Translations under genes and position numbers: made by a program
DNA from: a virus
DNA: 34,253 bases
IMG/VR virus record: IMGVR_UViG_3300020159_001236
Location: 1 to 34,253 of that record
Strand: one strand, 5' to 3'
In this document: piece after piece, positions 24,826 through 30,562 of the stretch
Layout of the letters: every line of letters starts with the position of its first letter
How positions within the stretch are numbered: position 1 is the stretch's first letter
The notes under the pieces: model-generated
The model's input: only the letters and a program-made list of their open reading frames with translations
The model's database searches: none
Told to the model about the DNA's origin: nothing

Positions 24826-26079
24826 TTAATAAAGGTATGTCACCCCAATCACAGAACCGATACTAGGTGTACCTTGTAATGTAATTTCTTTTTGACCCGT
24901 AATTTCAAATCCTCCACCCTCATCTTCAATAAGACCGTTGATGTCTAATGTAACAACACTATCAATAAAGTTTAAAACTTCAAAGGATAATGTTGAACCA
25001 TTATATGTGAAGTATTCGGTAGTTACTTGTATTGGTCTTCCATATGTATCGATTATAACACTATTTCTTCCTTTAAAATAAGTTATGGTTACAATACTAC
25101 CTTCTAATGGTGGTGTTACAAATGTTATTTTAGATGTTCCTGCAACATGAAAATAATCAACATCTCTTTCCTGAATCAAACCATTTATTGCAACATTAAA
25201 TAAAACACCTATAGTCTCACCAACACTGAACGCAGTTTGTAAACCATCTGCAGTGAAACTTACAATGGTAATATCAATAGTTTTATTTATGTATCTCTTT
25301 TGGTAATTGTTACTTTGAATAAATTCATTCATAAGGAACATTCTACTTAATGCCGGTTTTACCTCAAATTCATCACTATCAATAAGAATACCTAAGAGAA
25401 TAAATTTATAGGTTTGAATATAAAATCTTCGATTATCCAAAGAGTCCATTGGTGTACTATCATCAATTCCATCTAAAATAATTGGAATATAATGTCCTTT
25501 AACTGTGGTGTAGGATTGTCTCGATGAGAATTTTTGTAATATAATTTTATTAAACTTATTTAAATCTCTGAATTTTGTACACACTATAGTAACTTCATAG
25601 GATATATCGATTGCAACAGGTTGTGGCATTTTGTATACATCGGCACCCATTTGAGTACCGTTCCATGTAGGAACTGATGCATAATAGAATGTACTTCGGT
25701 CAGGTATTGTTCTTTGGACTGATGGATTTGTACCGGGTTGTGCGTCCGGCTTTCTAATTAGTGCAATGAATGGAAGTTTTACGTTACCATCATCATCACT
25801 AAAGTTCCAATTGTTCGTGAATTCCCCCCACCTTTGAATTGTCATTATCTTAGGTATAATTGGTATTGTCTCACCATCCGTAACTACTTTGAAGTTTTTC
25901 TTGATGAAATCTAACATCCCACCATCTAAGTCATCGTGTAATATTGAATCAGGTAGATATGAATCAGATTTGGTAATTCTATCTAACAACTCTTGTCTTC
26001 TCTCGGTGATTTTCTGTCCTTGATAGTACTCTTTGTTTCCGAAAACTTCTATATCGTTTTTTCTTTTTGGAACACCCAT
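24826..26079 (-). CDS. Probable neck/tail-completion structural protein with two C-terminal beta modules
   Basis: A 417-residue protein using the start MGVPKRKND at 26079, which lies one base after the stop of the upstream gene (TAA-C-ATG). An in-frame ATG at 26118 would add 13 residues and overlap that gene by 38 bases, so I prefer the inner start. Residues about 70-260 form a mixed domain (PFIALIRKP, FYYASVPTWN, AIDISYEVTIVCTKFRDLNKFNKIIL, YIPIILDGI, YIQTYKFILLGILID) reminiscent of tail-terminator type folds. Residues about 275-340 and 345-417 are two copies of a beta module: 'F...G....F.V......V...INGLI......F...G...IT....P..GS...ITY'. In T4 order, gene 15 (sheath terminator) occupies this place, between neck and sheath genes, so a gp15-like role is suggested but unproven. 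Confidence 0.65.
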   Translation of the reverse strand: MGVPKRKNDIEVFGNKEYYQGQKITERRQELLDRITKSDSYLPDSILHDDLDGGMLDFIKKNFKVVTDGETIPIIPKIMTIQRWGEFTNNWNFSDDDGNVKLPFIALIRKPDAQPGTNPSVQRTIPDRSTFYYASVPTWNGTQMGADVYKMPQPVAIDISYEVTIVCTKFRDLNKFNKIILQKFSSRQSYTTVKGHYIPIILDGIDDSTPMDSLDNRRFYIQTYKFILLGILIDSDEFEVKPALSRMFLMNEFIQSNNYQKRYINKTIDITIVSFTADGLQTAFSVGETIGVLFNVAINGLIQERDVDYFHVAGTSKITFVTPPLEGSIVTITYFKGRNSVIIDTYGRPIQVTTEYFTYNGSTLSFEVLNFIDSVVTLDINGLIEDEGGGFEITGQKEITLQGTPSIGSVIGVTYLY

Positions 26080-26080
26080 G

Positions 26081-26599
26081 TTATATACCTCTAAATTCTG
26101 ATTCTTGAACAGGAGCACAAACTATAGTCAAATAGTGTGGTTTGTATCCGAACATTTTATGTTTACTGTCCGCTTGGATTCTACCATCGTCAACTACTTG
26201 ATAGAAACGTACTTTTTCTTCACTTTCAGCATACCCAACAAAGTCACCATAAATGATTTTAACATTCAAATCGTCTAAGTGACTTAGATATATTTTAACA
26301 GTGAGATTACCGGGTTCAAGGTATCTCATTATTCCATTTTTATATGAACTATTCTTCGCCTCGGCAATTTGAACCAAACCATTTACTTCAATAGGAGGAA
26401 AGAACTTTATCTCATCCTTACCCACCTCAGCATATATCGAGTCAGTATCAGTTTTTGTTCTATCAACTCTGTATAAAACGAACTTCATGTTTAAATCTCC
26501 ATGAAGATATTCCTGACCCATTTGTATGTTAATATCAAAGTCTTCTTGTGAAAAGAATTTCGATAATCTTGTGATTGGTAGTTTATTGTTCATATTCAT
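26081..26599 (-). CDS. Probable neck protein, gp14-like candidate
   Basis: A 172-residue protein, mostly beta with hydrophobic strands (MKFVLYRVDR, VKIIYGDFVGYAESEEKVRFYQVV) and the C-terminal segment DSKHKMFGYKPHYLTIVCAP, ending EFRGI. The phrases 'YGD.VGY.E....RFY.VV.DGR..AD..H...GYKP.Y.TI.C.P' recall neck/head-closure proteins of T4-like phages as I remember them. Position supports this: it precedes the possible gp15-like gene and the sheath, and the gp13-like gene lies nearby on the other strand. T4 gp14 is longer (256). Two start codons are possible, 26599 and 26593. TATTTATA (coding strand) abuts the first, which favours the second as the true start. It shares a 45-base divergent gap with the SNF2 helicase gene. 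Confidence 0.55.
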   Translation of the reverse strand: MNMNNKLPITRLSKFFSQEDFDINIQMGQEYLHGDLNMKFVLYRVDRTKTDTDSIYAEVGKDEIKFFPPIEVNGLVQIAEAKNSSYKNGIMRYLEPGNLTVKIYLSHLDDLNVKIIYGDFVGYAESEEKVRFYQVVDDGRIQADSKHKMFGYKPHYLTIVCAPVQESEFRGI

Positions 26600-26644: not shown

Positions 26645-28399
26645 ATGAATACTATGGTTATTCCTGAAATTGAAGCTAGAGAAATATTATACAAATACGA
26701 AGGTTACAACAATCAATTGTTAGAATGGAAGAATAAATTTGAAACAACAAAAAACTTCAAATTAACTCGACCACAAGCTGAATATGTTTTAAAGTACAAA
26801 GACACAACACCAAAAATTGCCAGAAAATACATCAATATTGTCTCGACATTTGGTGAAAAATTAATGGATGATAAGTTATTAACCTCTCCACCTGATAAGA
26901 TATGGTGTGAAAAATTATTATGTGAAAGTGAAAAGGCATTCCATATTTGGGGTAAAATTATTGATTCTGAAAAATTATCATCTTTTTGGTTACCGAAAGC
27001 CGCGGTAATTCAACCTGAGAAGAAATTAGATAGAGAAATCGACTATTCGATATATTCTTCAAGACCTCCAATGGAACATCAAAAAGAAGCGATTGAGAAA
27101 CTTTTAGCAAATAACAAATACATTTTAGCCGATGATATGGGACTGGGAAAAACGACCTCGGCAGTAATTGCATCATTGGAAAGTGGTTCTCGAAAAATTC
27201 TTATAGTATGTCCGGCATCTTTGAAAATCAATTGGGAGAGGGAAATTAGAAACTATAGTGATAAAAAAATCTTGATTGTTGAGGGTCGTAAATGGGGACA
27301 CACTTTTGATTACTACATCATCAACTATGACATTATAAAAAATTACCACACAACCGATAAAAGTGAGGATAGTGACGATTACAAACTATTAGTTAACACC
27401 AATTTCGATTTGGCAATCGTAGATGAAGCACATTACATTTCAAACACCACCGCCAATAGAACAAGATTATTAAATGATGTTTTGGATACCATACCAAAGG
27501 TTTGGTTATTAACCGGAACACCGATGACATCGAGACCAATTAACTACTTCAATCTTCTTAAAATTGTTGATTCCCCTCTTACTTTAAATTGGCAAACATA
27601 CGTTAAAAGATATTGTAAAGGATTCCAATTCAAAGTTGGGATGAGAAAGGTTTGGAATACGAGTGGTGCAAGTAATTTAGATGAATTAAGAGAGAGAACA
27701 AAGAATGTGGTATTAAGGAGAATGAAAACCGATATTCTTGATTTACCTGAAAAAATAGTTACTCCCGTATTTCTAGAGTTAAGTAGTAAAATGTACGATG
27801 AGGAATTAGAAGAATTTGCAAGAATTAGTAAAGAAAGAAAAGAAGAAGACACCCTTACCATTACCCTTAATCGTTTAATGAAGGTTAGACAACTAATTTC
27901 TTATGAGAAAATTCCATATACCTGTGAATTAATCGATAAATGTATCGAACAAGGTAAGAAGGTTATTGTATTAACTAACTTCACTATGACTCTTGATATG
28001 ATACATGAAAAATACAAAAAAACCTCTGTTGTATTGGATGGTCGTATGTCTAAAGATAGAAGACAGGAATCAGTCGATAGATTTCAAAATGATGATAAGA
28101 TAAAAGTATTCATCGGTAACATTAAGGCGGCCGGTGTTGGGATTACTTTAACTGCTGCGGAAGTTGTTATTATGAACGATTTGTCATTTGTTCCTGCTGA
28201 CCACTCACAGGGGGAGGATAGAGCGTATAGATATGGGCAAAAAAATAGTGTTCTCGTTTACTATCCCGTATTCGAAAACACCATTGAAAAGGTAATTTAT
28301 AATATTTTACAAAAGAAAAAGGGAATTATTGACCAAGTAATGGGAGACGGAGAATTTTCCGAATCTTTTGGTAAGGACTTATTAAAGGAGATTCTTTAA
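26645..28399 (+). CDS. SNF2-family DNA helicase/translocase
   Basis: A 584-residue superfamily 2 ATPase of the SNF2 (Swi2/Snf2, HepA/SMARCAL1-like) type. The Q-type region PPMEHQKEAIEKL (about 141-153) precedes motif I DMGLGKT (164-170), motif Ia ILIVCPASLKINWEREI, motif II VDEAHYIS (about 259-266), motif III LLTGTPMTSRP (about 289-299), and in the second RecA domain KVIVLTNFT, VFIGNIKAAGVGITLTAA and motif VI SQGEDRAYRYGQKNSV (about 520-535). The first 130 residues are unassigned. Such enzymes translocate on double-stranded DNA to remodel forks or remove proteins; in phages they assist replication or recombination. T4 UvsW has a comparable role but belongs to a different SF2 branch. The gene is on the plus strand while its neighbours are on minus, and its 3' end overlaps the convergent nuclease-like gene by 18 bases. 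Confidence 0.93.
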   Translation: MNTMVIPEIEAREILYKYEGYNNQLLEWKNKFETTKNFKLTRPQAEYVLKYKDTTPKIARKYINIVSTFGEKLMDDKLLTSPPDKIWCEKLLCESEKAFHIWGKIIDSEKLSSFWLPKAAVIQPEKKLDREIDYSIYSSRPPMEHQKEAIEKLLANNKYILADDMGLGKTTSAVIASLESGSRKILIVCPASLKINWEREIRNYSDKKILIVEGRKWGHTFDYYIINYDIIKNYHTTDKSEDSDDYKLLVNTNFDLAIVDEAHYISNTTANRTRLLNDVLDTIPKVWLLTGTPMTSRPINYFNLLKIVDSPLTLNWQTYVKRYCKGFQFKVGMRKVWNTSGASNLDELRERTKNVVLRRMKTDILDLPEKIVTPVFLELSSKMYDEELEEFARISKERKEEDTLTITLNRLMKVRQLISYEKIPYTCELIDKCIEQGKKVIVLTNFTMTLDMIHEKYKKTSVVLDGRMSKDRRQESVDRFQNDDKIKVFIGNIKAAGVGITLTAAEVVIMNDLSFVPADHSQGEDRAYRYGQKNSVLVYYPVFENTIEKVIYNILQKKKGIIDQVMGDGEFSESFGKDLLKEIL

Positions 28400-29410
28400 T
28401 TCCTCTACCTTATTTCTTATTATTTGAAGTAAATTTTTATCTTCTAAATCGTTCAATATTAATTTTATTGTTTTAACACCATTCTCATCTGAGATTAAAA
28501 ATTCATTATCTCCCTCTTCCGTTCTTTCAAACATAAAAATAAATTGATTATTAAAACAAATTTGACTTAATTCAATCAATAAGTCTTCTAATTCTTCACT
28601 ATCATTTTTTATATCCATCTCATGTATTATTTGTGATTTTAGTACAAAGAATTTTTGGTTTCTCACTCCAATAAGAGTTTCATCTTTTGAATTCTCTATT
28701 ATGTAAATCTTTTTACCCGATTGTATAGAAAATAAATCAACCCCATTTCTATATATCGATTCATTATATAGTAATGATTTAGAAGTGAAATATAAACCCT
28801 CATCTTCTAATTTCACCGATTTATGCTGTACTTTTTTTGTTTCACCATCAATCAATAATAGGTAATCAATACCCCTCATCATATCATCTTCATCTCCTCT
28901 TTCAAAACTTAAATTGTATTTAATATCAAATTTTTTTGATATGGAGTGAAGAAAAACAATTGTAGATGTAGATCCTTTTGTCCATGTAAATTGGGTAGTA
29001 AAGAACATTTTTCTAAACACCTCCGAACCTGGCCTAAAAATATCTTGTTTGTAGTTTTCTATTGCACACCTAATGAATTTCAGTGTGTTTTCTAATTTAA
29101 AAGTTGAAAATTCCATTTCAGATAAATCAACTTTTTCTTTTTTAGATATGAATTCTATTATTAGATATATTGAACTATAATTTGTATTAATTGAATTAAT
29201 CCAAGACCAAACCCATTTATCTAAATGTAGATATAAAACTCCTTGTCTCGATTGATTCTTTTTTGTTGTTATAGACCCATGTTTATAGTATTTGATACCT
29301 GAATAATCAACCGTAGGTATTACTTGATTAATTGTGTTTTTTACACTATCCCTAAAAAATTTATTTCTGTTCCAAACACCCTTAAAGTTATCATGAGATA
29401 TCATATTCAC
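28382..29410 (-). CDS. Unknown protein with a PD-(D/E)XK nuclease-like motif
   Basis: A 342-residue protein that I do not recognise overall. Residues about 168-200 contain GDEDDMMRG, then IDYLLLIDGETKKVQHKS. The order 'G-I-D-hydrophobics ... VQ-x-K' (D182, Q195, K197, with acids at 173-176 ahead) is typical of the PD-(D/E)XK nuclease fold with a QxK variant, as in Mrr-type enzymes, where D and E/Q-x-K bind metal and catalyse. The preceding helix could hold a further glutamate (E170). N-terminal residues 1-165 are helical/basic (KFFRDSVKNTINQ, WVWSWINSI); the C-terminal third is beta then helical. It converges with the SNF2 helicase and overlaps it by 18 bases. A helicase-nuclease partnership is possible. 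A non-catalytic member, or a fold match by chance, cannot be excluded. Confidence 0.75.
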   Translation of the reverse strand: MNMISHDNFKGVWNRNKFFRDSVKNTINQVIPTVDYSGIKYYKHGSITTKKNQSRQGVLYLHLDKWVWSWINSINTNYSSIYLIIEFISKKEKVDLSEMEFSTFKLENTLKFIRCAIENYKQDIFRPGSEVFRKMFFTTQFTWTKGSTSTIVFLHSISKKFDIKYNLSFERGDEDDMMRGIDYLLLIDGETKKVQHKSVKLEDEGLYFTSKSLLYNESIYRNGVDLFSIQSGKKIYIIENSKDETLIGVRNQKFFVLKSQIIHEMDIKNDSEELEDLLIELSQICFNNQFIFMFERTEEGDNEFLISDENGVKTIKLILNDLEDKNLLQIIRNKVEELKNLL

Positions 29411-29420
29411 AAATATAAAC

Positions 29421-29428
29421 TATTTATA
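29421..29428 (+). promoter_or_regulatory. Candidate promoter element of the gp13-like neck gene
   Basis: AAACTATTTATAGTG in coding orientation, with TATTTATA 18 bases before the ATG at 29447. Its palindromic nature means the divergent gene at 29410 sees TATAAATA, 10 bases upstream. It is a plus-strand example of the element seen before minus-strand structural genes. Confidence 0.4.
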
Positions 29429-29446
29429 GTGATATAACAAAAAAAT

Positions 29447-30562
29447 ATGTCAATAACTATAATATCACAACCAGAAAAAGAGAAATTATATACACAGGTA
29501 TTCCATTTATTGGGTATGCCCGTTCGTGGAATAGAGTTAACTGAAGAACAAATGGACACTTTTATGGAGTTGTCAGTTTCAGAATATGAACAATACGTTA
29601 GTGATTGGTTAATTGAATCTCAGTGGTCTGGATTGGTGGGTTTAGATTTGGACACACAATCATTAACAAGAGCGTTTACCACAAGAAGTTTAGATTACGA
29701 AACTCAATATTCACATTCCTACTCCAAAATTGTTGGTTTACAGGCTGGTGGAAATTGGGAACTTAAAAAGGATTATTTCGAATTATCAGGTGGAACTCAG
29801 ACATATATTGTACCAGCAGGAAGAGAAATTAATGAATTATTGTGGTTCCAAAGAGCCGAATTAACTGACTCTATTGTTGACCCGTTCTTAGGGGGTTTTG
29901 GTGGATTAGGTGGTGTTGGTTTTGGTGGTGTTGGTGGTTTCGCTCAAATGGGTACCTCGGGTTCCTATTTTATGTTACCTGCACACGATTTGTTATTAAG
30001 AATGCAAGACAGAAACCTCAAAAATCGACTAATCGGAGGAGATGTTACATATAGAATTACTGCGGGTCCAAACGGAACTAAAGTGGTTCACTTATATAAT
30101 GTTCCGGGAGGTAAATTTGATTTTTCTAATTTAAGAAACAATTTCCGAGTATGGTATTGGTATTATGATACCATGGATAGAGATACGTGTTTAGAACAAA
30201 ATTCAGATGTTGTTAAATTACCTTCTGATATTGATGTTACACCTCTTACTTGGGACGCACTAAATAAACCAGCACAAAACTGGGTTAGAAAGTACCTCAT
30301 AGCATATTCAAAAGAGGGTTTAGCAAGAATTTGGGGTAAATTTTCAGGTGACTTACAAGTTCCCGATTCAACAGTCAAATTAGATTATTCATCCTTACTA
30401 ACTGAAGCAAAGGATGAAAGATTGAAATTGGTTGAAGAATTAATGCAAAGGCTCGAAAGACTTCGTCCTGAAAAGGTTTTGGAAAGAAAGGGATTAGAGG
30501 CAGAAAACCTTAACAAAGCATTAAAATTCAGACCAATGGTTTCACCATTTAATGTGATTTAA
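29447..30562 (+). CDS. Neck / head-completion protein, T4 gp13-like
   Basis: A 371-residue protein (T4 gp13: 309) expected to close the head-tail joint after DNA packaging. An N-terminal helical part (TQVFHLLGMPVRGIELTEEQ and then MELSVSEYEQYVSDWLIESQ) resembles connector proteins. A beta domain has WELKKDYFELSGGTQTYIVP and INELLWFQRAEL. A Gly-rich stretch at about 146-170 (FLGGFGGLGGVGFGGVGG) interrupts it. The C-terminus has the gp13-like pattern NWVRKYLIAYSKEGLARIWG, KFSGDLQVPDSTVKLDYSSLL and a following charged helix, i.e. helix, 'I.GK.S....P...V.LD...LL..A..E...L..EL'. It is on the plus strand, 36 bases from a divergent gene, and converges on the DNA polymerase with a 4-base stop overlap (TTAA). 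Confidence 0.75.
   Translation: MSITIISQPEKEKLYTQVFHLLGMPVRGIELTEEQMDTFMELSVSEYEQYVSDWLIESQWSGLVGLDLDTQSLTRAFTTRSLDYETQYSHSYSKIVGLQAGGNWELKKDYFELSGGTQTYIVPAGREINELLWFQRAELTDSIVDPFLGGFGGLGGVGFGGVGGFAQMGTSGSYFMLPAHDLLLRMQDRNLKNRLIGGDVTYRITAGPNGTKVVHLYNVPGGKFDFSNLRNNFRVWYWYYDTMDRDTCLEQNSDVVKLPSDIDVTPLTWDALNKPAQNWVRKYLIAYSKEGLARIWGKFSGDLQVPDSTVKLDYSSLLTEAKDERLKLVEELMQRLERLRPEKVLERKGLEAENLNKALKFRPMVSPFNVI

Follow-up and report, generated by a model that had tools for sequence, protein, structure and literature searches.

Does a nuclease gene that converges on a helicase gene in a T4-like phage act together with that helicase, or does it occupy a site of its own beside it? The window analysed here is the whole of IMG/VR virus record IMGVR_UViG_3300020159_001236, positions 1-34,253 (34,253 bases), and its genes are those of a T4-like, contractile-tailed phage, with baseplate, tail tube and sheath genes for the virion, and a DnaB-type helicase, an exonuclease, a UvsX-like protein, a single-strand-binding protein and a family-B polymerase for replication and recombination. 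An earlier, sequence-only reading placed an SNF2 gene on the + strand and a 342-aa open reading frame on the - strand with their 3' ends overlapping by 18 bases. This arrangement is confirmed, and a similar one is found in relatives. The same reading proposed that the two may form a functional unit for recombination, host-DNA degradation or counter-defence, and that the arrangement resembles a cassette inserted between neck genes. The region contains the following features.

24826-26118, - strand: 430-aa protein (p430), conserved in nearly all relatives
26081-26599, - strand: 172-aa protein (p172), conserved in nearly all relatives
26645..28399, + strand: SNF2-family helicase/translocase, 584 aa (Pfam SNF2-rel_dom, E 9.6e-28, and Helicase_C, E 5e-18), conserved left neighbour of the slot, outside the cassette
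28382..28399: 18 bp shared by the converging 3' ends of SNF2 and the nuclease gene, from the ORF coordinates
28382..29410, - strand: predicted 342-aa PD-(D/E)XK-type nuclease with a fused C-terminal small domain, start codon GTG, clade B of the slot family (ORF, alignment, model, structure search)
29411..29446: intergenic region from which the nuclease and gp13-like genes diverge, the right border of the cassette
29421-29428, - strand: octamer TATAAATA, within this intergenic region
29447..30562, + strand: gp13-like head-tail adaptor, 371 aa, a conserved gene that borders the slot on the right (PHROG 'head-tail adaptor Ad2', E 3.7e-9; T4 gp13 by hhalign, E 8.8e-5 over 55 columns)

Relatives of this region were gathered by using SNF2, PolB and the gp13-like protein as queries against viral contigs; they are uncultured metagenome contigs, of which a few hybrid ones might be chimeric. 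More than 200 loci share one fixed order, sheath (-), p430 (-), p172 (-), SNF2 (+), slot, gp13 (+), PolB (-), and what varies is the content of the slot. After duplicate removal, 118 distinct loci hold a fused nuclease as in the window (49), a nuclease with a separate small gene (20, several of them overlapping by a few bases), a nuclease alone (6), the small gene only (42) or nothing (1). A nuclease ORF is thus present in 75 distinct loci, and in the other 43 SNF2 stands without it. The presence or absence of the pair in relatives had been proposed as a check on the functional unit, and this independent occurrence of the two genes refutes an obligate SNF2-nuclease unit. A cassette does adjoin the gp13-like gene, but it consists of the nuclease with or without the small gene, and not of the SNF2-nuclease pair. 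Similarly, the gp13-like neighbour has been borne out, but the supposed interruption of a gp13-gp14 order has no sequence support: a gp14 or gp15 identity of p172 and p430 was rejected after profile comparison with T4 gp13, gp14 and gp15 gave no match, and neither protein has a significant match in a PHROG search. A late-promoter reading of TATAAATA was also dropped, as the octamer is without enrichment in this AT-rich DNA (9 found against an estimated 11 or so expected).

In the records covered, the slot is, with one exception, the only address of this nuclease family. Across twenty records of 77-311 kb the family occurs at no other place, and the nuclease-less records among them have no copy elsewhere. 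Searches of phage records with clades A, B and C gave no relative at ordinary thresholds apart from a weak match in the metagenomic LR756501, and two pattern scans of bacterial and archaeal genomes found no member. The LR756501 copy (L229:2746-3618 (+), LR756501.1) was subsequently matched by the family HMM at E 3.6e-29; it lies in a 735-kb phage, away from SNF2 and gp13, and is without the small domain, and a scan for its own relatives found none. In L258, a distant relative with an SNF2 that is 47-56% identical, this slot holds a family member (HMM E 2.3e-38) that points the other way and has no small gene beside it, which suggests an independent insertion.

Four parts of the window protein can be distinguished.

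29180..29209, - strand: N-terminal family motif W68...N72..N75-T76-N/H77, with W68 and T76 invariant in 62 sequences
28820..28897, - strand: predicted catalytic signature G172-x3-D176-x3-G180-x-D182...Q195-x-K197, invariant in 62/62 aligned slot proteins
28613..28993, - strand: PD-(D/E)XK core, residues ~140-266 (AlphaFold model; VIA-align matches)
28385..28606, - strand: C-terminal domain, residues ~269-342, of alpha-beta-beta-beta-alpha topology, with homologues that relatives encode as separate small proteins of 63-94 aa

BLAST joins all 72 distinct slot nucleases into a single family, which divides into clades A-E. An alignment of 62 slot nucleases, 15-99% identical, contains nine invariant positions (W68, T76, G146, G172, D176, G180, D182, Q195 and K197), of which those from G172 onwards make up GxxxDxxxGxD...QxK, an active site of the PD-(D/E)XK type, in which D176, D182, Q195 and K197 provide the acidic and (D/E/Q)-x-K residues of that class. 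The D...QxK signature (D182, Q195, K197), which the sequence-only reading had found credible, is invariant in 62 relatives down to ~15% identity and is therefore not a product of chance; together with the predicted fold it supports the PD-(D/E)XK-like nature claimed for the protein. The domain around the W68/T76 motif is predicted by AlphaFold to consist of a beta-meander plus helices, a fold without assignment. Within-clade nuclease pairs have dN/dS values of 0.04-0.34, indicating that the nuclease is maintained and functional. One natural variant has lost exactly the catalytic core: L099 and L095 are 99% identical, except that L099 lacks 85 residues, in frame, and with them the entire catalytic signature, while the rest of it is intact. 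A copy of the L192-type nuclease at L193:4994-5851 is N-terminally truncated and may be a decaying allele.

The window protein has no family in Pfam or PHROGs, and among phage records it has a single sub-threshold match. NCBIfam and PADLOC provide no usable name for the slot nuclease, the PADLOC matches being weak and inconsistent, and a PDB sequence search returned chance matches only. Weak matches to Pfam DUF4365 in 9 members (best E 4.2e-4) are taken as a lead only. With the family alignment as input, AlphaFold2 models the window nuclease at pLDDT 90 and pTM 0.86, and this confident model contains a restriction-endonuclease-like alpha/beta core, although its structural matches stay below Z 8. 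VIA-align matches the core to Hjc (2wcw, Z 7.2), XauSPARDA (9qcc, Z 6.7) and I-Ssp6803I (2ost, Z 6.0), and to RecU-type resolvases at Z 4.3-4.8, and in Foldseek the homing endonuclease I-Ssp6803I ranks first among PDB entries (E 8.7e-3). Nearly all of the higher-ranking structural matches are PD-(D/E)XK nucleases (Hjc, SPARDA, I-Ssp6803I, DpnI, RecU), with middling Z scores. Based on the signature and the model, it is credible that the 342-aa protein is a nuclease of a previously unnamed PD-(D/E)XK family, one that has no clear counterpart in Pfam, PHROGs, NCBIfam or PADLOC.

The C-terminal domain of the window protein, out of reach for the sequence-only reading, emerges from comparison with relatives: an HMM built from the free-standing small proteins alone matches window residues 276-341 at E 2.4e-11 (72-protein set). 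The small protein is predicted to fold as alpha-beta-beta-beta-alpha (pLDDT 93). It resembles minigluzincins, IrrE and a mycobacterial regulator only weakly; none of these was adopted, leaving it without a secure structural relative. In T4, a small protein, UvsW.1, adjoins the UvsW helicase; the small-protein profile retrieved no UvsW.1 entry from the PDB, and the fold search gave no clear match. The small gene is intact and under purifying selection even in loci that have no nuclease, and the small domain perhaps serves in DNA binding or regulation.

INDEPENDENCE from SNF2, the nuclease looks to have repeatedly come, gone or been swapped for another allele among aquatic phages that are nearly identical in other respects. 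In the pairs L012/L014, L064/L067 and L201/L206, SNF2 is 99.3-99.5% and gp13 99.1-99.7% identical, while the nucleases between them are just 27-29% identical. The pair L034/L035 is ~100% identical over 4 kb upstream of the slot and nearly so over ~2 kb downstream; one slot, of 1,070 nt, holds a clade-D nuclease with a small gene and the other, of 229 nt, a small gene only, and the two small proteins are 57% identical. In L049/L123 and L168/L185, too, identity falls off at the slot or close to it. Mapped on the SNF2 tree, slot state requires at least 41 changes, compared with a mean of 66.7 (range 59-72) for shuffled labels, and there are 17 nuclease gains or losses. Where dS can be compared with the SNF2 backbone, nuclease alleles are never clearly older, and in 10 of 23 pairs they are clearly younger; this comparison is weakened as a demonstration of horizontal spread because gp13 behaves similarly, tending to be younger than SNF2 in 8 of 23 pairs. 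With regard to gene conversion with co-converted flanks, allele exchange and junctions are seen, and the flank effect is weak: slot-adjacent identity is 89.6% in different-state pairs against 95.5% in the comparison pairs (16 and 40 pairs, which are few and non-independent).

Free-standing homing endonucleases have been defined in general terms (PMC6083498), their phage-wide pattern has been described (PMC10448857), and T4 provides examples, among them segE, which lies at inh/uvsW and targets uvsW (PMC2988022). The slot nuclease, like these enzymes, is an optional gene between conserved genes. Because its alleles are replaced while the flanks stay identical, which is the signature of homing, homing is the preferred reading: the 342-aa gene is probably, and we say so with moderate confidence, a free-standing homing-type PD-(D/E)XK endonuclease in the SNF2/gp13 slot of a T4-like large-phage lineage. 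DNA cleavage, the target site, which way conversion runs and what the small domain does are all inferred here from sequences and predicted structures. Bacteroidota are a tentative first guess for the hosts of this lineage. In a mixed infection, the nuclease would cut a co-infecting relative in its slot region if the allele there is different or empty, and repair of the break by recombination from the nuclease-bearing genome would copy the cassette in, that is, the nuclease, often with the small gene or the fused domain. Over time the nuclease may decay or be lost, leaving the small gene only. The L034/L035 pair constrains this scheme. With flanks identical for kilobases, a nuclease directed at SNF2 or gp13 would cut its own genome; therefore, if homing is right, the target would lie in the slot itself or far away.

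Several points count against homing. In the twenty long records the family is confined to the slot, LR756501 being the exception beyond them, and a selfish element might have spread more widely. The fold matches that place the predicted core are middling, with Z below 8. There is also no recognised homing DNA-binding module: neither Pfam analysis of the window protein nor the families listed for the 62 members include NUMOD or a similar module. Such modules are frequent but not universal in phage homing enzymes.

Other elements of homing type are found in the same neighbourhood, which counts in favour of the homing reading. SNF2 itself carries an insertion of ~1.1 kb at the Walker A lysine/threonine (residue ~170) in eight loci (L086, L258, L120, L168, L185, L217, L221 and L259). 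The two examined of the eight, in L086 (5257-8130) and L258 (1913-4792), match LAGLIDADG_3 and Hom_end_hint, and this combination of LAGLIDADG and Hint-type domains makes them inteins; the L086 nuclease is the closest to that of the window after L002. A GIY-YIG ORF with a NUMOD3 motif and a weak SegE_GIY-YIG match lies between the 172-aa gene and SNF2 at L023:4857-5627 (-). As separate observations, an ORF at L258:7236-7952 (-), between the gp13-like gene and PolB, has an HNH-looking C-terminal motif and no Pfam match, and the gp13-PolB and PolB-p122 gaps of L029, L124, L148, L206 and L048 hold gene-sized insertions of varied content, none recognisably of the slot-nuclease family.

Allele exchange by ordinary recombination, combined with selection for diversity, could also fit these data. 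On this basis it is possible, though we think it unlikely, that the nuclease is a weapon of competition or exclusion, which cuts co-infecting relatives or satellites and is diversified by selection without any bias toward copying itself, with the small protein perhaps conferring specificity or self-protection. In favour of this, the locus has many ancient alleles and frequent null alleles, the small partner gene remains intact and under purifying selection also where the nuclease is absent, and there is a published precedent for a phage homing endonuclease that serves interference competition (PMC11620839). However, the small gene does not behave as a strict cognate partner, as co-inheritance of a toxin-immunity pair would demand: L206 and L210 have small proteins that are 91% identical and nucleases that are 43% identical, and small genes that are 84-92% identical are found both with and without a nuclease. 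Furthermore, fusion is frequent, nuclease and small domain being one polypeptide in most nuclease-bearing loci, unlike a toxin and its immunity protein. A more elaborate proposal, and a doubtful one, is that the slot is a phage-phage recognition locus, in which the five diverged nuclease clades and the small-only allele would amount to kin discrimination, each lineage cutting co-infecting relatives of another type at their slot, and the small domain, fused or adjacent, setting specificity or self-protection.

It is similarly improbable, if not slightly more so, that the nuclease is an accessory gene for degradation of host DNA or for counter-defence. Its optional presence, its restriction-like catalytic signature and the weak DUF4365 matches would suit such a role, but no sequence feature points to host DNA, the PADLOC matches do not agree with one another, and the exchange of alleles at one address between identical flanks would be left unexplained. 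The idea that SNF2 translocase and nuclease work jointly in recombination, for instance in junction resolution, draws on the overlap of the two convergent genes and on the archaeal Hjc resolvases among the best structural matches; we consider it very unlikely, given that the nuclease is missing beside SNF2 in 43 of 118 loci and swapped elsewhere beside an unchanged SNF2, that the nuclease-less ones among the twenty long records have no second family copy elsewhere, and that L099 has lost its catalytic core with the remainder intact. That the variety in the slot stems chiefly from chimeric assembly is barely credible: all relatives are uncultured contigs and the breaks adjoin conserved DNA where assemblers may join strains, but the same alleles recur in separate assemblies (L019/L020, the L139 group), the clades recur on many backbones, and the nuclease ORF is present in 75 distinct loci, those compared being under purifying selection.

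These results bear on more than this phage. They caution that convergent, overlapping neighbours need not be a functional pair, and the 118 loci, with five clades, nulls, fusions, a catalytic-core deletion and near-isogenic pairs, provide a natural experiment on the replacement of a homing-type nuclease at one address. Among known systems, the archaeal Hjc and the RecU Holliday-junction resolvases share the predicted PD-(D/E)XK core, but the slot nuclease has ~200 extra residues, an optional distribution and no PDB sequence match. I-Ssp6803I, which is compact (~150 aa) and intron-encoded, belongs to the same catalytic fold class and is the best Foldseek match; the slot nuclease differs in having no sequence similarity to it, and the structural match is middling. 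PD-(D/E)xK homing enzymes have been listed among bacterial rather than phage homing enzymes (PMC3943268), and an unnamed family of this class would now join the likely phage ones. Moraphage modules pair CcdA/HicB-like antitoxin genes with Pac-I-like putative homing endonucleases, in multiple copies (PMC12619734). They resemble the slot in being found in large aquatic phages and in coupling a small gene to a putative homing endonuclease, whereas the slot family is present in one copy per record and its small protein belongs to no recognised family. A direct parallel in arrangement is T4 SegE, likewise an optional nuclease flanked by conserved phage genes and adjacent to a helicase gene, whose alleles replace one another among relatives. 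Whereas SegE is a GIY-YIG enzyme, the slot family is a predicted PD-(D/E)XK nuclease, accompanied by a fused or adjacent small protein and diversified into five deep clades at a single address.
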